Part shown: piece after piece, positions 33,262-64,000 of the stretch
Position numbering within the stretch: position 1 is the stretch's first letter
Layout of the letters: every line of letters starts with the position of its first letter
Assembly (NCBI GenBank): GCA_947169045.1
Contig: CAMVOC010000004.1
Location: forward strand, 1-64,000
Source: an uncultured bacterium
Lineage (GTDB): Bacteria; Patescibacteriota; Gracilibacteria; Absconditabacterales; Absconditicoccaceae
DNA: 64,000 nt
Direction: 5' to 3'
Position numbers and translations under genes: made by a program
The notes under the pieces: model-generated
The model's database searches: none
What the model saw: the letters and a program-made list of their open reading frames with translations, nothing else
Told to the model about the DNA's origin: nothing

Positions 33262-34302
33262 CTACAGACATGCGACCTCTAAAAACGAGATTTTTTGCTG
33301 ATCACAATCAATTTCTGTGTCACATCACAGAGGTAATACATGCACAGGATCTGTATGTCAAAAGTCCATATTAGTAATAATCGGCAAATGAGAAAGTCAC
33401 AATTCACCATTAATGACTTTATCTAAAGCTTCTTCATAAGATATTTGCTCTCAAGTAGAATAATTTAGCTGAGACCTTCACAATAAGATTCATGAAAGGA
33501 CACGAATGATTCATTGAGATCATAAATTTCTTATAATTCTTTCGAATGTAATGAGAGGCATCTTTTCTTCAGAAGTCTCTATGCATAAGATTTTTCATTT
33601 CCAATCATCCAAATTAGGCCAAATAGAAGTCCCTTGTAAAAAAGGAAAGACATCTATACATCCTCAAATAAGCTTTCAAACGTGAACTCCCTTTCATTGT
33701 ATCCATTTCCATCACGACGTTTTTTGCGTTGCCCTACGCTTTAATTGATTCCCGGGATTGTCTCGGGATAAAAACTCATTAGTCCAGCCTCCAGAATTTG
33801 GCAAAAATTCTAAGTGATTATGAGATTCAAATAACATCTTCTTAACCGATGTAATCATATAATCAAACATTCATCCATTTTCGGCGAATCAAGCCATAAT
33901 TGATGGTCAATAAAAAGAGAGAAGTCACACTTTTTGACAAATAAAATGCGTTATCGTAGAATCAGAGAATCACATGAATATTTTAGGATTTTCTCTAATA
34001 ACATTAAAATCAATATAAGGTAAAATTCTAATACTTTCTTCTCATCAAATGGTAGAAAAAATAGCTTTTACCTCAGGATTTTTAAAAGCAGACATCAAAT
34101 CTTCAGCTCTTGCTTCTGGGTGAGTATAAACTCGTTCAGGAGACTGCAAGGTGTACTTTCATTCAAGCACATGAACACCAAATTCTTCTTCAAGTTGTTT
34201 TTTTCAAATAAGATATCTATCGGGACAAGCTCATGGTCATCACCAAGATAAAGAAAGAGTCATTACGGTATCTCACGGACGAAGGCGATTAGGTTTTATC
34301 AT
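33262..34302 (-). CDS. S66-family LD-carboxypeptidase (MccF-like)
   Basis: The 346-aa product is a serine peptidase of the S66 family, which includes LD-carboxypeptidases and MccF-type microcin C immunity enzymes. Visible motifs are KAIFSTIGGEESIRILPYIDF, GFSDSTITHFICQ (nucleophile Ser), FYGPSIMAGFAENGGM, LIGGCIDVFPFLQGT and NMDFGHTDPV with the catalytic His. About 26 glycines are UGA and only about 9 are GGN, far more UGA than in the housekeeping genes. Nothing longer than a fragment is visible in the standard code. It is flanked by the 52-bp direct repeats, so it may have been inserted with a promoter copy between terC and gpmI. Confidence 0.85.
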
Positions 34303-46015: not shown

Positions 46016-49000
46016 ATGACCAACCTTGAATTAATGGATCAAATCATCGCTTATCGAAAAAAAGACCAAACATTTCAACGTTCAATCGACGAAAGAAGCG
46101 AAAAAATGCCGTTTAGATTTTTTGATGGTCCTCCTTTTGCTTCAGGGACTCCTCACTATGGACATCTGTTAGCAGGAGCTATCAAAGACGCCATCCCAAG
46201 ATATATGACCATGCGTGGATATCGCGTAGAAAGGAAACGAGGACGAGATTGCCATGGGTTGCCTGTAGAAAAAGCAGTGGAAAAAGACCTAGGAATTGAT
46301 GGGAAAAGGGAAATAGAAACAAAAATCTGAATTGAGTCTTTTGTAGAGAAATGCCGTGCCTACGTCAATGAGACCAACGATGTGCGAAAACGATTTATCA
46401 ATCATACAGCTCGCCGAGCGGATATTGAGAATGATTATCGTACGATGGATCTCGATTTTATGGAAAGCGTAATGTATTGTTTTGATAAAATTTACAAAGC
46501 GAACCTCGTTTACAAGGGATTTAAAGTACAGCGATATTGTCCAAGTTGTGCAACTCCGCTCGCAAATAACGAAGTTTCCGAAGGATATGAAGATAAAACG
46601 GATAACGCAATTACGGTAAAATTCCAGATCAATCCCCAAAAAAGTGAGCTAGAAAAATGGCATACCTATCAACACACTACTGACGGAGCAATTCGTTATG
46701 TCAGAGGAGTCATCAAAAATGAAAAAGGGGAGATTCTCCAGATATTTAGCACGAGAAAACATCTGTTTACCTTTCCAGGAGGAAAAGTAGAAGAGGGAGA
46801 AACGTTACAAGAAGCGCTTTCCAGAGAAATCAATGAAGAATTGGGATTAACAGTAAAAAAAGCTGATTTTTTATGATCGTTTAAAACAATCCTCAACGAT
46901 AATCCAGGATTTCGAGAGCAGAATCTCTTTGAAGTGGAAGTTTCTGGGGAATTGATAAACCGTAAGCCAGAGAAACATAGTCAAATTAAGCGAGTAAAAA
47001 TAGAAGCTTCAGAAAACAGCGAGAATACGCTGAATGCCCAACTCGTAATGGATGGAGTCATCATCGATACGGCAGAGGAAATCGAAAAACAGTTTGAAGA
47101 TTTGTATTTTTATATGAGAGGAATTCCGCAAAAAGTAGCATCATCTGGAGATGCTAAACTCTTTTTCTTAGCGCGAACGACTACTCCATGGACGCTCCCA
47201 AGCAATATGTTCCTTGCAGCTGGAGCAGATATTTTATATGCAATCGTGTATGACTTTGCGAGTCAGGAATACTTTGTTCTAGCAGAAAATCTCCTCAAAA
47301 AATACTACAAAAATCCAGAAGATTATATCCTCATCCGCACGTTAAAAGGTGCTAAATTAGCAGGATTTTTCTATCATCCACTCTTTGATTATATCCAAAA
47401 ATCAGACATAAAAGCTGAATTTAAAGACCAATTTTTCCAAATTCTCAATGCGGAATACGTAAGTACGGAGGATGGAACTGGAATCGTGCATATTGCTCCA
47501 ACCTTTGGAGAAGAGGATTACAACGTAGTTGCTCAATTGTTGGGAGGAGAAAATGCCTTAAAATGGCTCTTTATGCCGGTAAATGAATATGGAGAATTCG
47601 ATAAACAAATCCCAGATTATGAAGGGCAGAGCGTCCTCACGATCAATAAAACCATCATAGAAAGAATGAAAGAAGAAAAAAAGTTAATAAAATCTGAATC
47701 CATTACCCACAGTTATCCTCATTGTCGAAGGTGTCATACCCCACTCATCTCGAAAGCAATGTCTTCTCGATTCATCAAAGAAAAAGAGATGAATGCACAA
47801 ACACGAAAAGATGCAGAACATATTAATTTCGTCCCAGAAAGTGTAAAAAATCGTTTCGTCAACGGACTTCAGCAAGCTCCTGATCGAAATGTTGCTAGAA
47901 ATCGTTATCGAGGAAGTCCACTTCCAATCTGGCAAAACGTGGATAATGAAAATGATCATATTTCTGTAGGTTCATTGGAGGAATTGTATCAGCTTTCTTT
48001 ATCTGGTTCTAAAAATATTACAAAGCATATTCTCATTCGTCACGGAGTAACCGATTATAACCAACAAGGACTGCATGATATGCTAAGCAAAGCCAAATTA
48101 AACGAAAAGGGACAACAACAAGCGCAAGAAATTGCAGATAAACTTCGTGCAAGTAATTTGAAAAAAGAAAATACCGTGATTGTACTGTCTCCATTGGATA
48201 GGACCTGGGAGACGGTAATTCCTGCGTTAGATCTCTTCTATTCCGCAGAGGAAAAAGAAAAAATCGCTCAGTCCTACAAACAAGTGCAACAAAAATATCT
48301 TACGCTTTGCAATGAGGGGACTCTTATCCAATATCTATGAGACGAAAAAGCTGAAAACCATTTTCAGATCGGAGAAAATATCTATGTAGATTTCCGTATC
48401 ACTGATAGCATTACTCCTAGTTTCCAAGATAAAAGATTGCCAGATACCGATAGGGAAACACCACTTACAGAAAAAATATATGGCGATCCTACAGGAGAAA
48501 CCTACCAGCAAAGAATCCAAAGAAATCAAAACTACCTTCATTTCGTCAATACCACCTATCCAACCCGCACAATTATCACAATCAGCCACGGAGGATCACT
48601 TACCGTTCATAAACAAGGATTTCTTAATTTTGATTATAAAGACAGAACGAGATACGTCCCTAAAAACGGGGAAGTAACGGTGCTATATCGAGATACAACC
48701 AGAAATACTTCAGTGGATCTTCACAAGCCTTATGTAGATACCTATCGATTTATGAAGGAAGGAAAAACCTACAAAAGAATCCCAGAAGTAATGGATTGCC
48801 GGTTTGAATCTGGAGCAATGCCATTTGGTCAGGAACATTACATTGGAAATAGTAAAGAAAGCTGACAAGGAGAGAAACAATCCTCACGTTTCACGGCAGA
48901 CTTTATCGCAGAAGGACTCGATCAAACGCGTGGACGATTTCGTTCTCTGCATATTCTCAATCATGCTATTACGGGAAATAATGCAGCAAAAAATATTGTG

Positions 49001-50044
49001 GTAAACGGACTTATTCTCGCTGAAGATGGGAAAAAGATGTCCAAATCACTGAGAAATTATCCAGATCCGCAGGCTCTTATCGAAAAACGAGGAGGAGACA
49101 GCTTTAGGCTCTATTGTCTACAGTCCCCAGTCGTAAGGGCAGAACCTATGAAATTCAATGAAAAAAGTGTAGAACAAATTTTCAAAGACATAACAATTCC
49201 TCTTCAGAACGTCTATAATTTTTTCGAAACGTATGCGAAAATTGATGGATGGAAATCTGAGGGGACAGAAGTATATCTCCGAAAAGGAAGTTCAGATGCT
49301 GAATCTAGTACCGAAAATCTAGAAATGAAAACTCGCATTAATCCAGATGTCACAGTTACACTTTCCAATCCAACTGAGTATGCTAACATCCTCTCTGAAA
49401 ATAAGGGGAAAAGAATTCTGATACAAACGGATGAACAAACCTTTGCTAAACTGCGAGCAGAAATATACGCAGGTTCAAATACCGAAAAAGCGCTTGTACA
49501 AAGAGATACTCCTATCGAGCTCCCGACCTATCAAATTACAAATGACCTTGATAGACGAATCCTTGCTGAACTGCATCAAACGATGAAAACAGTAGATATA
49601 AACTTACAAAAATACATTCTTGATGAGGCAACAAAAGCTGCAGTGGATTTCCTTGATAAACTTACTAATCGACGATTGCGTAGGTCAAGACGTCGTTTCC
49701 GAGCAAATGGAATGACTGATGATAAATATTCAGCATTTGCTACCTTATTTTGGGTATTCAAGAGATATTTGCAAATTCTGGCACCATTTGCCCCATTTAT
49801 CACGGAGGACTTATGGTTAAAATTACATGATTTTATCAGTCCAGCAGGAACAAACGAGAAGGACACAGTACAATCTATCCATCTTTCATATCGACCATTC
49901 GCTAGTGACTTATATATCAATCGTGATCTCATTTCTGAAATCGCTACTGTGCGTAAAATTATTAAGCTCGCCCTTTTTGTCAGAGCAAAGAATAAAATCG
50001 CAGTTAAACAGCCACTTCAATCTCTTCAAGTAAAACTCAATTAA
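46016..50044 (+). CDS. ileS: Isoleucyl-tRNA synthetase with inserted Nudix and histidine-phosphatase domains
   Basis: The product is 1342 aa, against roughly 900-1100 for normal IleRS. The class I core is intact: HYGH at residues 47-50, the editing domain with TTTPWTLPSN, the Zn-type CRRCHTPL, and KMSKS at 1007-1011. A Nudix domain (box GGKVEEGETLQEALSREINE, residues 255-280) is inserted between the start of the editing domain and TTTPW. A histidine-phosphatase domain (IRHG at 674-677, SHGG at 857-860) is inserted between VGSLEELYQ and LHKPYVDTY. CGA/CGG stand at seven conserved Trp positions. The protein stops soon after KQPLQSLQV, so the usual C-terminal domain is absent. All UGA are Gly in one frame. 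Confidence 0.93.
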
Positions 50045-50083
50045 AGAAATATACGTAGAAATACTTTGTTTGAGCTCGAAGAA

Positions 50084-50118
50084 AAGCATTTTTGTAGTAC
50101 AAAAAAATGCCATTTTTT
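50084..50118 (+). terminator. Intrinsic terminator of ileS
   Basis: GCATTTTTGTA and TACAAAAAAATGC form a long A/T-rich stem, followed by CATTTTTT. Confidence 0.7.
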
Positions 50119-50179
50119 CCTTGCAATTAAGGGCAAAAAAGCTACTACTACTATAGCTTCATTGCGAAGCATTCATATC

Positions 50180-51865
50180 ATGCCAAACATCGTAAAAAAC
50201 GCACTTTTTTTACTCTTTTTCTGTTCCTTTGCAGGAGGTGTTTTTTACGTTAGTACGAGTTCCGATGTGCTACATTTGAGTGAGAAAATCTTTTTAGGAG
50301 AAATAGGATTCAGCAAGGAAACGAAAACTCAGATTTTAACGGGAGATTTTTCGATTACATTAGAAAATAATGAAGTCTGAGAAGAAGAAATTCTGTGACA
50401 AAAAGCGAATCCTCAATCTGCAGATTTGACCGCTCCTGTCTGTACAGCTAGTTATGACCCAACTGCTTGGACGAGTGGAAGTGTAGTAGTGACCTTAACC
50501 TGCAGTGAAGAAGTGGAATTTTGTACAATGGATGATTATTCTGACTGTCCTCAACCACAACCAGTACCAGCAGAAGAAGGAGTACCATGTTGGAGAGCTG
50601 AAGATATTGCCTACAATGGATTCACAATTATGGCATGTAACCTATGAGCAACGGAAGTAGGGAATGGAGAATCCAGTTATGGTAACTATTATCAGCGAGG
50701 AAATAATTATCCGATGGGAGATGGAAAACTCACGGGAGAATATCTACCAAATTCAACGACAAGGGTAAATGCGTCAAGTTTTTGACCAAATAATCCTTTT
50801 TCTAGTGCTACATTTATCAAACAATCGTATTGGGATAGCTCAATGAATAATAATTTACGAGGAGGATCTGGTGATACACTTTCTACGAACGGGCCAGGAA
50901 CGCGAGAGGACCGTCAAGGTCCATGCCCTGAGGGATATCATGTGCCTTCTACGTTAGAATGGAGTTTACTGTTCGCAGGAGTCCCAAATTCACCGGTTGG
51001 AGTAAATATTATTCAGAATACCTTATTTTTACCAGCAGCAGGTCAGCGTAATTATTCCAATGCAAGGCTTATCTCTTGAAGTATTGCAGGAAGTTATCAT
51101 TCCTCTAGCCCATATCTCACAAGTACGCAGCATAATTATGCATTATATTTTACTAGATCTGGTTTGAAACCTCAGGCGTATCGATATCGTGGACGTGGAT
51201 TATCAGTGCGCTGTTTCCTAAATGCGTATGATCCTCCTGATCCTATCCCTTGTGACGGAGCTCCAGATATAACATATAACGGAATTACAATTATGGCATG
51301 TAATCTTGGAGCGACTGAAGTAGGGAATGGGGAGAACAGTTATGGATATTATTATCAGCGAGGAAATAATTACCCTATGGGTGATTATACAATAGCCACC
51401 TATACTCCATATACAAGCACAAAAGTCGACGCTTCTGCATTCTGACCAAATAATCCCTATTCTAGCGCAACATTTATTAGACAAAATCAATGGGATAACT
51501 CAAATAACAAGAATTTACGAGGAGGATCTGGTGATACACTTTCTACGAACGGGCCAGGAACGCGAGAGGACCGTCAAGGTCCATGTCCTGATGGATATCA
51601 TATCCCTTCCATTTTAGAACGACAGCAATTACTCTCCGGAGTAACTGAGCATGACTTCAAATACATTCTTTTCTTGCCGTTGGCAGGTTTCCGTAACTCT
51701 AATGCAACACTAACAAAAGTTGGAGCTGGTGGAAGTTATCATTCATCGAGTCCATATCCTAGTACCAGTCAAAGCTATGATATGTATTATAATACGAGTG
51801 CAAATGCCAAAAGTTATCAATCGCGCGGAGTAGCTCAATCGATCCGTTGTTTCCAAGACTCTTAA
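50180..51865 (+). CDS. Secreted protein with two FISUMP-type modules
   Basis: The product is 561 aa. It has a signal peptide (NALFLLFFCSFAGGVFYV), a short linker with an Ig-like Cys strand, and two tandem modules of 220 residues that match the Fibrobacter-type major paralogous domain: NGFTIMACNLGATEVGNG, YYQWGNNYPMGD, GPCPEGYHVPSTLEW and a closing ...VRCF. In the modules CGA (50696-50698, 51359-51361, 51620-51622) replaces Trp that is TGG in a sister module. Four or more UGA are Gly, at equivalent spots in both modules. It is probably a cell-surface protein; the function is unknown. Confidence 0.8.
50852..50925 (+). repeat. 74-bp exact internal repeat, copy 1
   Basis: This 74-bp segment is identical to 51512-51585, 660 bp away, in the same frame of the FISUMP-type gene. 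Confidence 0.9.
51512..51585 (+). repeat. 74-bp exact internal repeat, copy 2
   Basis: This is the second copy of 50852-50925. The surrounding module is more diverged, so the exact block suggests recent gene conversion. Confidence 0.9.
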
Positions 51866-57617: not shown

Positions 57618-60600
57618 ATGATGAAAAAGAAAGTTCTTGCCTTAGGAATCGTTTTATCAGGAATGCTAATATGTGGGATATCGCAAGTATCCGCTGATAC
57701 TACAAGAACGGTGGCGTGTACGGGATTGCCAAATAATGCGGTTTGGAGCTCTAATTCCAGTACTACAAAATACATAACTCAGACATGGCTCGTATTTCAA
57801 AATACGGGAGTATGGGTGCCTTCATCGGAAGGGTCATATAACACCTCAACATTGGGGTCTAACTGTTATTACACATGTAACGCTACTTCCACACGAAATA
57901 GTAGCAATGAAACCTGTGTACAAAATACGCGAGAGGCAGGCAATCGAGGAAGATGTATTCAAGGCCAGACTACAAGAACGGTACAGTGTACCTCATTTGC
58001 AGGAGCAGTATTGGCAGATGCAGCTTGTAACGTTAGTACAAAACCGAGTACGACTCAGACTTGTACGGTTTCTTTGCCTATTGTAGAATTTAGTCCAAAT
58101 GGAAGTACTACATACAAAACAGGATATGCGGTGAGAATGTCGGTAGACGGGAATGATGGACGTTCTCCAAAAGATTTAAAATATATCTGGCAAACTTCAA
58201 GTAACTGTCCAAGCACTACTGGGGGATATACCTCAACATTCACAGAAAATTGAACAATTTATAGCCCAGCAAATCAAAATGGACAAGTATACCTATGTGT
58301 AACTGCAAGTAATCAGGCTGGAGGTACTATTTATACAGGAAGATCGTTTCTTTTGGATACTATCGCACCTTCAGGAAATGCTTCTATCTCTGGGAATATA
58401 ACCCATACAACACAGAACTCCGTAAAAATTAAGGTATCTTCCGTTAGTGATAACATTTCTGCAAATAACCAGATTTTAGGTTGTGTTAGTAAAAACACCT
58501 CACTTGAGTATTGTGGCTTTTGGTCATCTCTATCGAATCTTACTTGGGAACTATCAGAAGGATATGGGGATAAGATGGGATTCGTATTTTTGAGAGATCA
58601 GGCAGGAAATGTATCAAGTCCAAAACTGATCACAATCAATAGAGTTGCTCCATCAGAAGTAACATTTTCACCTAATGGAAACGATAACACTCCAGCAAAG
58701 AGTGCTTCGATAACAGTGACTGTAACGGTAAATGATAAGCTCGATAATTCATCTACATTAAAATATACATGGATGAAAGGGGCTTGCCCGTTAACTACAG
58801 CAAGTTACACAGAAACTCTTACTAATAATCAAGTAATCACTACCCCAGAGAATGGACATGGAGGATATCGTTTATGTGTCATGGTAACAAATCCTCTTGT
58901 ACCATCAGAACCAGTAATAAAAGGAAGTGATTATTTTGTATTAGATAATACTGCTCCAACAGGATCAATTAAAATTAATAATGGTGCAACTACTACTACC
59001 TCTAGATATGTAACATTAAATTTATCTGGAATTGATACTACAGTAAGTTGCGGATGGGAGCCATGACTTACAAGTATGGTAGAAGTTTGTAGTGGCACTT
59101 CGAAAGAAGCTTACCAAATGTGTATCTCTAATCAAAGTTTCTCTGCTACATTCTGTCCTACTCAATGGGAAAACTATGCAACCATAAAGAGTAATCGAGA
59201 TCTTACAGCAGGAATAGGAGAAAAATGGGTATACGTCAGATATAAAGATCAGGCAGGAAATATTTCTCAAGAATATAAAGCAAAAATAGAGCTACAAGCA
59301 GTGATCTGAACATATAAAATCATTTTAAGTACGGGTACTATTAATTCAGGGACTTATACCACTACGTCTGAATCTCAAACAAGAACGCTGACTCCACCGA
59401 CAAATTTCTTGACGGTCTCTTTTGATTCAAATGGAGGAGGAACAGTAACTCCAGCAAGTGTAAATAGTGAAAGGGAATTTAGTGGATGGATCATCACTAC
59501 CAACAGTACCCCATCAAGTAGTATCGTAGGAAATACATTGACAATACCAGCTAATGCAGCAGGACCAATAATAATTAACGACCAATGGAAAGCCTGGCAA
59601 TCTGTAACATGTTCCCCAGCTCCAAAAAAAGAAGGATTTTATTTTCTTGGTCGATATACTTCACCTATTAACGGAGAAGGTACACGAAAATGTGGTGCAA
59701 ATGGTAGTTACACACCGACTTCTTCAGAAACGCTTTATGCTCACTGGGAAGCACTTCCTACATGTAATTATCAATGAGAAGTAACGCCTTTGACTCAAGC
59801 ATTATTTAATAGATTGTATCCAAAAAATTCACTTTGTAACCCTTCAACTTCCTTAAAAGAAGGACCTACGTATACTCCCGGAGCAGGATGGAGATGGACA
59901 TGTGGAACGGTATCGCATCCTTATGAGGTATCTTGTTTCATTCCAGAATTGACACAAGAGGAGGGAAAACTTAGAGTAACCAAAACAGCAGCTCCAAGAG
60001 AGGCTAGACCTGGGGAAATAATAAGTTGGAAACTAGTATTTACTGCAACAGATGGAAATATTAACGAACCAGAATCTTTTACGGATGTGATTCCTGAAGG
60101 TCTACTATTAATTCCTGGTTTCTCTAAAATTACTCCTGAATGAAGCGCAGAAATTAGTATAGAAGGGGATCAACAACTAAATATTACCATTTTGCCATCC
60201 CTAAAAAACGGGCAAAGTATAACGGTATGGATATACACCAAGATTCCAGAAGAGTACGAAGAAAATAAGACAATTACAAATTGTGTAAAAAAAGCTGAAT
60301 TACAAAGAGAACTTACTTGTGATGACGATATTCAGTGGAATGGACTTTTAATTGCAGCTTGTAATGTAGGTGCAACTGAAGTGTCTAATGGTAACAATCC
60401 AGCGAGTTTTGGTAATTATTATCAATGGGGAAATAATAATCCAATGGGAGATTATACCGTTGATCAATATCAACCAGTTAGAAATACATCAATAAATGCT
60501 AGGGACTACTTACCTTCACAATATACAAGTAGTGAGTTTATTACGGTCAATCCGCGAGATTATCCAGAGAATCCAGATTTGCGAGGAGATAAAACAAATA

Positions 60601-63600
60601 CGAATGAAGCGAGAAAAGGACCTTGTCCTGAAGGATATCATGTACCATCTCTCAGTGAGTGGGAAACGTTATTTAAAGGAATGTCGAATGCAGATACTAA
60701 CGTTCTAGTAGAAACACTCAAATTTCCTTACGGAGGAAGACGCGATGGAAATACTGCAAGACTTGTGGATCTTAATCAAGGAAACCGAGGAGGTTATCGG
60801 TCATCTACTCCTTTCTCAGCTATGTTAGAAAGATCTCATATGATCAAACTTTCTCCATCAGAATTCACCATAGAACCATATAATCGTAATGAAGGACTTA
60901 ATGTTCGTTGTTTTAAAGATACACTTCCAGAGGCGATAGAAAATACTCTTGATGAACCAGTATGTGATACAGTTAATATCGTTCCAAAAGGAGAACTCGA
61001 ACGAGAAAAAACAGCTTCTACTTCTAGAGTTACTCAAGTAGGGGATGAAATCATTTATACGTTAAAGTTTACTGGAACAGGAGGAAAGACCGAAGCTTGA
61101 TGGTTTTCTGATGAAATAAATGAGAATCTTGAAGTGATAGAAACGGGAGTAAATGCGTATCCAGAAGAAAGAAGTAATAATGTGAAGCTCAATCAACAGG
61201 CAAATAATTTTGATATTTACATTCCATCTCTCAATAACGGGGAGACCATTACTATCGTTATTAAAACAAAGTTAAGAACATTGCCAAATACGGAGGTGGT
61301 AACAGGAATTCAAAATTGTCTTATAAAACAAAGTGCTACATCTTATGGGCTACTAACGGATGGATGACTCTATACGCTAGATCTAGCAATAAATCCTTCT
61401 ATTGATGGAATTGCAATAGATCCTTCTATTGATGGAAATAATGTCATAAATAGCGCAGAATCAAATGGTTGAGATACTGCAGAGAATCCAATCGAAGTAT
61501 TGAATCCGGACGCTGATGCAATAGTACAACCTTGAGATGAGGACAGTAAAGTAAAATGTGTACGAGTCAGCTTTCCAGAAAATATCCGAAATACAACCTA
61601 TAGTAAAAAATTAATTTACCAATCAGGAGATACTATTGCCCGAGAAATTACGTGGCAATGAGTCAAGTGAGTTTCCAGAGAAGAACAATTTATTGATGAA
61701 TTAACAGGAGAAATTACAAATATTTCGATAGGAACAGCAAAGCGAACTCAGAGCCCAGCAGGAGAACTTTCGCGAAGCTCAACGTATCCTATAACATCTC
61801 CAATTACTTTTACACTAAGTGGACTTCAAGAAAAACACTCAGTTTCGCTCATAATCACAGGGACAATCCTACCAGAAGCTGATACTAAAAATATAGAGAA
61901 CTGTATCTATAAAGTAGATAAGACAGAAGAATCTGAAAATAATAGATTTGGGACAGAAGTGCCATTAGTTGGAATCCATTATGAAGATTGGATAGATCGA
62001 GATCGAAATGATGCCGAACTATGTTTTTATGGAGAGAAGGAAGGAAATCTCACTTTTAATGGACAAGAAATGATTGCTCAATTTTCAGGAGAGCTAAATC
62101 TTGAAATTCAACGTAATGCGTGAGCAAATCACGATTATAAAATTACTGTAAAAAATAGTAAAGGAAGGATCAAACAGATTTATACAGGAAATACATATCA
62201 TGGAGCTCCTATTAAAGATGGATCAAAGAAATCAATAAGCTATAAAACGATCTCCGTAAGTACAGGAGATAATATTGAAGTAAGCTTCGTTAACGCATAT
62301 TGGGATCAGTATGGAGGAGGGGAAGCTTGTGCTCCTGAGGGACATCCTAAGACAGCACGACAGCGAATCCTTAATAATTCTCAGCGAGGAAAACGAAGAA
62401 GTCCTAACTTGATTGAGAAAAAATATTCATGCGAAGAAATTGATCAAGGAAGACTAGAAGTATTACCAAATAAATGTAGAAACTTGTTCGCAAAAAAAGA
62501 ATGTGCAGGATGATGTTCAAAAGGTGAGTTTCGAAATCCTGAGACGCAGAAATGTGAAAAAGATCCAAATCTCTTTTGTACTGATGGAAGCTTAAAGGCA
62601 GATAAAAAAGCTGAATGTGAAGCAGAAGGTGGGGAACGACAGGATGCTGATTGTACGTGTACTAAGGGAACAATATCGCAACCTATTGCATGTTGATCAT
62701 TGTCTGGTAGTATGCTTCCTCGGGATTTTGATATAGAAACGGTTACAGAGAATCAGTTTTGTATTCCTCCTGAAGCATGGGACGGTACTAGTGAAGAGAC
62801 TCCAGATGATGAAGGAGGGGTAATAATTACATGGAAATGTAAAAATGGTACAGAAGAATTAATCTGTAGTGCTATTAAAGAACCTAAACAAGAAGACCTA
62901 TGTCCTGATGGAAAAACAAAAACAGAGAAAAAAGCTGAATGTGAAGAGAAGGGTCAAAAACGAGATGGAGAATGTGATTGTATCATTACAGAATCAATAG
63001 AAACACCCGTTGTATGTGGACCACTGTCAGGTCAGGAGATCGCTCATGATATTGATATCAATACACTTGATGAGAGTCAGTTTTGTATTCCTCCTGAAGC
63101 ATTAGTTCGTCCATTTGAAAAAAATACAGATGATGAACTGATATGGAAATGTAAAAATGATACAGAGGAATTAATCTGTAAGGCTACGAAGGTACACGGA
63201 TCTGCAGAGGATTTATGTCCTGATGGAACGACAAAAGCATCTCATGAGGCAGAAAAAGCTGAATGTTTAGAGAAGAATGGGAAATGGGATGATGCAAACT
63301 GTGGATGTAGGAATGAGCCAGAACTTGTTGTATGTTGAGATACATATCATATGCAATCATTGCCAAAGAATACAGTTTTTGATAGCACTCTCTTGTGTAA
63401 TCCGTCAGAAAGTTATAATGGAGACCTTAAAGAGACTACAAACGGATGGACATGGTCTTGTGGAGATGCAGAAGCTTGTTGGGCAAGTAATTGTCCTGCA
63501 GGATTTGAAAGAGACAAAGATGGAAACTGTGCGCTCAGTGATATTTCTCATACAAAGACGCTTAGCGGAAGTAGAGAAATCTCAGAAATAGGACAAACAG

Positions 63601-64000
63601 TAACATGGATATTTACATGGACAGCAAATGCAAAGTTCCAAGATAAGAATTACCATTATATTGAGGAGCTTCCATCATATTTTGAAATTGTTGGAGATGT
63701 AGTTTTCAAACCAGCAGATGCAGTAGGAGACAAAGTAACCTATGAAATAGGGGAGGGTAATATCGATTTCCGAGTACACAATATGAATGCCGGAGAAAAG
63801 CTTACCGTAGAGGTAACTGTAAAACTCGTAGAGCGACCTGAAGGAGTAAAAGGATTCCGTAATTGTTTGGTAGCTTCAGGAAACGGAGAGGAGGCATCAT
63901 TTGATAAAAAAGTCTGACTCATCTATGAAGATTGGACAGATCGAGATCGAATTGATGTTTCGTTATGTTTAGAGGGAGATGTAACGTTGTCTTCGGAAGC
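57618..64000 (+). CDS. Giant secreted multidomain surface protein (continues beyond window)
   Basis: One frame is open from ATG 57618 to the window end (more than 2125 codons); every interruption is UGA and no UAA or UAG occurs. Order of parts: signal peptide (LALGIVLSGMLICGISQVSA); TSP1-like Cys repeats (to ~150); Ig-like beta domains (~155-560); an InlB-like repeat with VSFDSNGGG (~598-720); DUF11-type domains (KTAAPREARPGEIISWKLVF, ~778-890 and again ~1120, ~1970); a FISUMP module (~900-1100); Cys-rich repeats LCPDGKT...KAEC...C.C (~1650-1900). It is probably an adhesin for host contact. The C-terminal anchor lies outside the window. Confidence 0.85.

Follow-up and report, generated by a model that had tools for sequence, protein, structure and literature searches.

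A Giant Modular Protein with a Sec Signal Peptide in a Code-37 Patescibacterium, and the C-Terminal Domain Found in Its Relatives across the Order

Introduction

In Candidatus Vampirococcus lugosii, a predatory Absconditabacterium, giant membrane proteins have been described that are the closest counterparts of the protein considered here; they range from 1392 to 4163 aa, bear DUF11 together with other adhesion domains and were proposed to act in host attachment (PMC8080830). Since these giant DUF11 proteins have been published (PMC8080830), the kind of protein described here is already known. What we take to be the new part is a conserved C-terminal domain (CTD) and its distribution over the order. 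The CTD provides an order-wide handle for finding and testing the host-contact proteins of uncultured predatory or parasitic bacteria. A second precedent concerns genes that keep to the standard code: phages of Gracilibacteria and Absconditabacteria have been described that are compatible with code 11, and an advantage of keeping the standard code was inferred by their authors (PMC10746230).

The Giant Gene and Its Code

The window analysed here, 64,000 nucleotides long (G000:C4:1-64000), belongs to a contig that extends to 91,327 (91 kb) in a draft genome of 873 kb and 13 contigs. Near its end, on the plus strand, a frame devoid of TAA and TAG runs from 57618 to 63998 for 2127 codons. The giant gene begins with this frame (57618..64000 in the window), and the rest of it lies beyond the window; the whole gene spans C4:57618-69347, encodes 3909 aa and ends at a TAA outside the window. 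An earlier note, made from the letters of the window, had described a protein of more than 2100 residues that was still open at the window end, and the stop at C4:69347 bears this out. The open frame is a real, single gene: base shuffles of it gave open runs of at most about 200 codons, and its two remaining forward frames contain 206 and 202 TAA/TAG.

The gene fits NCBI table 37, where UGA is read as Gly and CGA/CGG as Trp. The "dozens of UGA glycines" of the earlier note were an overstatement for the window, as its part of the gene has 16 UGA codons and the whole gene 28, which is 9% of its Gly and typical of the contig; the window part also has 30 recoded Trp from CGA/CGG. Reading CGR as Trp instead of Arg gave higher bit scores for all three domains tested (TSP1, List_Bact and FISUMP), and two of these, List_Bact and FISUMP, exceed their Pfam cut-offs as isolated segments only when CGR is Trp. 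When the neighbouring GH26 gene was aligned with that of a second species, CGR stood opposite CGR at 20 of 21 places and opposite Trp at the other.

Several other genes on the contig merit mention. An LD-carboxypeptidase (S66) gene on the minus strand at 33262-34302 has 26 UGA codons in 346 aa, far over the window average. An AT-rich island at C4:82.5-87.0 kb (L004:10500-15000; GC 0.23-0.30) holds genes in which UGA makes up 67-81% of Gly, against 6-19% around the island, among them two similar C39-peptidase-like genes, one radical-SAM-like and one methyltransferase-like. An isoleucyl-tRNA synthetase-like gene of 1342 aa (46016-50044) contains an inserted NUDIX domain (residues 229-332) and, from residue 672 onward, a histidine phosphatase domain.

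Architecture of the Giant Protein

The modules run in one frame on the plus strand, and the earlier reading proves right in that the protein is a mosaic giant, secreted, from a Patescibacterium that uses code 37. The protein opens with a Sec type I signal peptide, as had been proposed, at residues 1-27 (57618..57698), with a hydropathy peak of 2.17 at residue 6 and likely cleavage after VSA; inspection of the N-terminal sequence revealed neither a lipobox nor a prepilin motif. It is followed by a TSP1_ADAMTS-type thrombospondin repeat (PF19030) at residues 105-150 (57930..58067), which as an isolated segment scored 31.7 bits with CGR as Trp and 26.3 with CGR as Arg, both above the cut-off of 23.8. 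Next is a putative Ig-like block of about 195 aa present twice in tandem, at residues 150-344 and 345-555 (58065..59282). The duplication is clear (internal repeat E 4e-16), and the family search returned no Pfam match for the pair. A List_Bact repeat of the InlB type (PF09479), at residues 654-709 (59577..59744), scored 30.7 bits in isolation with CGR as Trp, 22.6 with CGR as Arg (cut-off 27) and 23.9 within the whole protein. The FISUMP domain (PF09603), at residues 926-1100 (60393..60917), scored 37.4 and 30.4 bits in isolation under the two readings (cut-off 33.9); in the whole protein its scores, 28.2 bits for PF09603 and 25.2 for TIGR02145, are under the cut-offs. The TSP1-like, InlB-like and FISUMP modules that the earlier note had named each lie above cut-off as isolated segments with CGR as Trp.

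About ten DUF11-type modules are spread from residue 785 to residue 3343, and only the last two, both beyond the window and strong at 60.1 and 37.3 bits, individually exceed the Pfam cut-off. Within the window the modules score poorly, at 17.9-20.1 bits where they match at all: module 1 at residues 785-892 (59970..60293; PF01345 19.1 bits), which is repeated elsewhere in the protein; module 2 at residues 1127-1228 (60996..61301; 20.1 bits); a degenerate module 3 at residues 1324-1449 (61587..61964), with no Pfam match, which repeats with residues 1981-2118 and 2482-2626; and module 4 at residues 1975-2070 (63540..63827; 17.9 bits), all of the scored ones below cut-off. The protein as a whole belongs to the DUF11/B_ant group, with 98.4 bits for PF01345 (cut-off 24.6) and 85.2 bits for TIGR01451 (cut-off 24).

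A further module, marked by the motif EDWxDxDWND, occurs in three copies. The first, at residues 1451-1583 (61968..62366), is 39% identical to residues 2598-2736; the second, which begins at residue 2099 (63912..64000) and is cut by the window end, is 44% identical to the first; and the third, found as an internal repeat, lies beyond the window at residues 2598-2755. A DUF4114-like calcium-binding identity was considered and rejected, as PF13448 was unmatched to E 1 and only the DxDxND motif recalls calcium-binding loops. Between the first two copies are tandem Cys-rich units at residues 1653-1948 (62574..63461), whose internal repeats are 44-52% identical. The conserved end of the protein, the CTD, occupies residues 3386-3909, beyond the window, and corresponds to no Pfam family.

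A C-Terminal Domain Conserved across the Order

With the last 524 aa as query, the CTD, a domain of about 440-520 aa, was matched in 37 of the 49 genomes of the order, including those of the named relatives SR1 bacterium RAAC1_SR1_1 and SR1 bacterium MS502-49; the 12 genomes that gave no match include some that are near complete. In stretches of 20 kb fetched around such matches the CTD closes all 23 frames, 22 of which are 1173 to 4481 aa long, while the remaining frame, of 997 aa, has lost its 5' end at a contig end and is the only one of the 23 to lack an N-terminal hydrophobic signal. The bodies of the giants diverge whereas the CTD persists. A C-terminal hydrophobic segment is absent from 22 of the 23 members, and an internal 19-residue hydropathy window just over 1.6 was found in a single one. 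The bacterium's own genome has two CTD loci, one on contig C9 and the window's gene, which is the second copy. In the C9 paralog (L035:5843-12340, 2165 aa) the CTD is followed by some 20 hydrophobic residues, possibly a membrane anchor, unlike other members; because of this tail, the CTD is perhaps not always sufficient for retention.

Searches found no Pfam family for the CTD and no sequence relative in the PDB at E 0.1 or better, and Foldseek gave no significant match, which does not prove a new fold. Two structure models had pTM values of 0.78 and 0.80, and the last approximately 200 aa are predicted to form a beta-solenoid. The best structural match of model 1 was ComZ of Thermus at Z 7.9 (182 aligned, rmsd 5.4) and that of model 2 was again ComZ, at Z 6.6 (129 aligned, rmsd 4.2), values such as models with no true match commonly give; ComZ also topped the Foldseek results for the short one of the two models, with a non-significant E of 0.53. 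A profile of the last approximately 200 aa recovered faint relatives beyond the order, in 16 genomes of the same class and in 6 of other classes; those of these Patescibacteria relatives that were read form the ends of large proteins.

Genes around the Giant

In the source genome and in a second species (G036), the CTD giant is followed first by a gene for a secreted HExxH peptidase with a FISUMP domain and then by one for a GH26-like enzyme. In most genomes the CTD gene is directly preceded by another giant gene of about 1500-2200 aa, members of a family without a signal peptide or Pfam match (L035:12369-19043 and L036-L054) that show many short, beta-strand-like hydrophobic stretches; the source genome has this gene pair on C9.

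FISUMP, which was found in 13 of the 49 genomes of the order, also occurs in a separate protein of the window, a 599 aa frame at 50066..51865 (+) with copies at 50666-51214 and 51248-51862. This protein scored 42.1 bits for TIGR02145 (cut-off 41.65) and 30.8 for PF09603, below cut-off; its FISUMP is a paralogous domain, and its gene is not adjacent to the giant. The module is shared with this protein, as had been noticed, and the next gene after the giant has it too, but a recent exchange between surface genes, as suggested from it, finds no support. Between the FISUMP of the giant and the two copies identity is 39-42%; the copies share 59-61% with one another and 41% with a FISUMP of the G036 giant, and so the giant's copy is no nearer to them than is that of another species.

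Anchoring and Possible Role

The anchor expected at the C-terminus was absent when the extended contig was read, and the conserved CTD, which has no Pfam family, stands in its place. A hydropathy scan of the giant found no TM segment. Sortase anchoring was rejected for want of an LPxTG motif and a C-terminal hydrophobic segment, SLH/S-layer anchoring as no SLH match was returned by Pfam and NCBIfam domain searches, and a role as T9SS substrate as the C-terminus gave no Por_Secre_tail match. Since cleavage probably removes the signal peptide, and no part other than the CTD is common to all members, we infer that the CTD would be an envelope-retention module. The export signal and the architecture are legible in the sequence, and from them we consider it somewhat probable that the giant, exported via Sec, would stay on the cell surface, held at the envelope by its CTD, and would display its fast-changing body of beta-rich modules as a modular shaft in contact with the host. 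The candidate host-attachment fibre of the earlier note holds insofar as the protein is a secreted, modular giant, and host attachment would be its likeliest use. In this genus the peptidase/FISUMP and GH26-like genes come after the giant, and so it may, in addition, hold these hydrolases at the contact site. Against this reading count the 12 genomes without a CTD match, the hydrophobic tail of the C9 paralog and the fact that no cognate receptor for the CTD was identified.

It is less probable, though still worth weighing, that the CTD is a distal, pilin-like tip (a beta-solenoid) or an adhesive head, with retention residing elsewhere, for example in an uncleaved signal peptide. ComZ, a competence minor pilin of Thermus, was the best structural match of both models and the last approximately 200 aa end large proteins in other Patescibacteria too, but Z values of that size are typical of models lacking a true match, the N-terminus is Sec type I-like and has no class III prepilin signal, and the annotated neighbours included no conspicuous type IV pilus gene. 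We likewise regard it as unlikely that the giant is released and unanchored, serving together with the peptidase and GH26-like enzyme as a scaffold or as a factor for digesting glycans of host or plant origin. The absence of a classical anchor, the retention of the gene trio in the second species and the presence on giant and peptidase of FISUMP, known from fibre-degrading bacteria, would agree with a scaffold; against it, the CTD is conserved where giants are without FISUMP and both enzyme neighbours, and a domain search of the giant revealed no cellulosome-type docking domain. Finally, an artefact, whether an assembly chimera or a frame joined over an error, might be suspected in a 13-contig draft but is very improbable, given GC of 0.47, 0.43 and 0.24 at first, second and third codon positions, domains that run in order through the frame, and a homologous 4481-aa giant with the same genes downstream in another species' assembly.

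UGA-Free Genes with T9SS Tails

Downstream of the giant, on the minus strand at C4:74753-78199 (L004:2754-6200), a lipase-like gene ends in a T9SS sorting tail, the sole Por_Secre_tail match in its genome, and has no UGA among 86 Gly codons; its code appears to be the standard one, and it is similar to genes of bacteria that might be hosts. G036 has a UGA-free gene 37-42% identical to it, near virB4 and mutL, among large neighbours in which mostly about 30-47% of Gly is UGA. T9SS tails were found in 32 of the 49 genomes of the order, mostly within long UGA-free frames (besides L004:2754-6200, such UGA-poor genes were seen at L123:5979-9416 and, about 45 of them, in L042, L050, L091, L092 and L134-L193). 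In 47 T9SS-tailed genes UGA accounts for 12 of 2616 Gly codons, 11 of these 12 being in two exceptional or doubtful genes, as against 3764 of 11262 (33%) in neighbours. In alignments CGR codons of such genes fell opposite Arg in 7 cases, Gln in 4, Lys in 2 and Trp in 1, and the genes seem to use CGR as Arg. A makes up 61% of the 20 bases upstream of their starts but 36% in native genes (p 1e-15), which agrees with what is described for Bacteroidetes, where Shine-Dalgarno sites are lacking and A upstream of the start plays a role (PMC6847099).

These genes may have been long kept in the standard code, or re-imported repeatedly. A gene that occupies one locus in six genomes makes recent import less convincing as the only cause, since its synonymous sites are saturated: 56-76% of its fourfold sites have changed, and yet all 768 of its 768 pairwise-shared Gly codons are GGN. 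GC3 of the T9SS-tailed genes tracks the GC3 of the genome around them (rho 0.59, p 0.002), which fits long residence; a distance test of a history shared with the CTD gene gave r 0.26, p 0.22, and with this result import may have recurred. High expression as the cause of UGA absence was mostly rejected, as UGA makes up 14/40, 15/28 and 26/42 of Gly in ribosomal proteins, but 1/36 in G037. Contamination is an unlikely source where the genome is complete, as in G042, or where UGA-rich genes lie on either side, and a viral origin of one such gene was rejected, since it had no relative among viral contigs. One stretch, L187 (G011:C55:76000-92000), has several UGA-free non-secreted genes, looks Bacteroidota-like throughout and may be a misbinned Bacteroidota contig. 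A search of the open-access literature returned no paper on T9SS tails in Absconditabacteria, which is no proof of novelty.

Nine genomes of four genera have a T9SS-tailed gene close to a CTD giant, at distances of 84 bp to 5.7 kb; six of the nine belong to one genus, so that the independent cases number about four, and the T9SS-tail matches examined for this adjacency were not a random sample. These apparently standard-code genes in code-37 genomes point to T9SS bacteria such as Bacteroidota and Fibrobacterota as possible hosts. A bolder and, in our view, doubtful proposal is that the genes are "bilingual", their lack of UGA, CGR as Arg, A-rich starts, signal peptides and T9SS tails letting a standard-code host of these phyla translate and display them; that no Bacteroidota promoter was found upstream (0/46 T9SS-tailed genes, against 2/256 native genes) counts against expression by the host. 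If they were expressed by the host, this would be a new way for one bacterium to act upon another, and if the bilingual proposal were true, the CTD-giant loci would be host-interaction loci that combine parasite-made fibres with host-made proteins.

Comparison with Known Systems

Like the Vampirococcus giants, the present giant is a DUF11-bearing protein of giant size from an Absconditabacterium; there, the membrane localisation was inferred and the passages on those giants name no common C-terminal domain, whereas here there is no TM anchor and the CTD is order-wide. ComZ (PDB 6qvi), the best, weak match of the CTD models, has a C-terminal beta-solenoid, as is predicted for them, but the giant has no prepilin signal and is far larger, and Z values of 6.6-7.9 are not significant. 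The DUF11/RrgB-type fimbrial and adhesin proteins of Gram-positive bacteria (TIGR01451, TIGR04226) resemble the giant in having DUF11-type modules above cut-off; unlike them, it lacks an LPXTG/sortase signal and adds Cys-rich, FISUMP and TSP1 modules and the CTD. Lastly, the code-11-compatible phages, tied to code-25 bacteria, and the T9SS-tailed genes are both DNA without in-frame UGA associated with recoded bacteria, but the published cases (PMC10746230) are phages, and those found here are single chromosomal genes for secreted, T9SS-tailed proteins.
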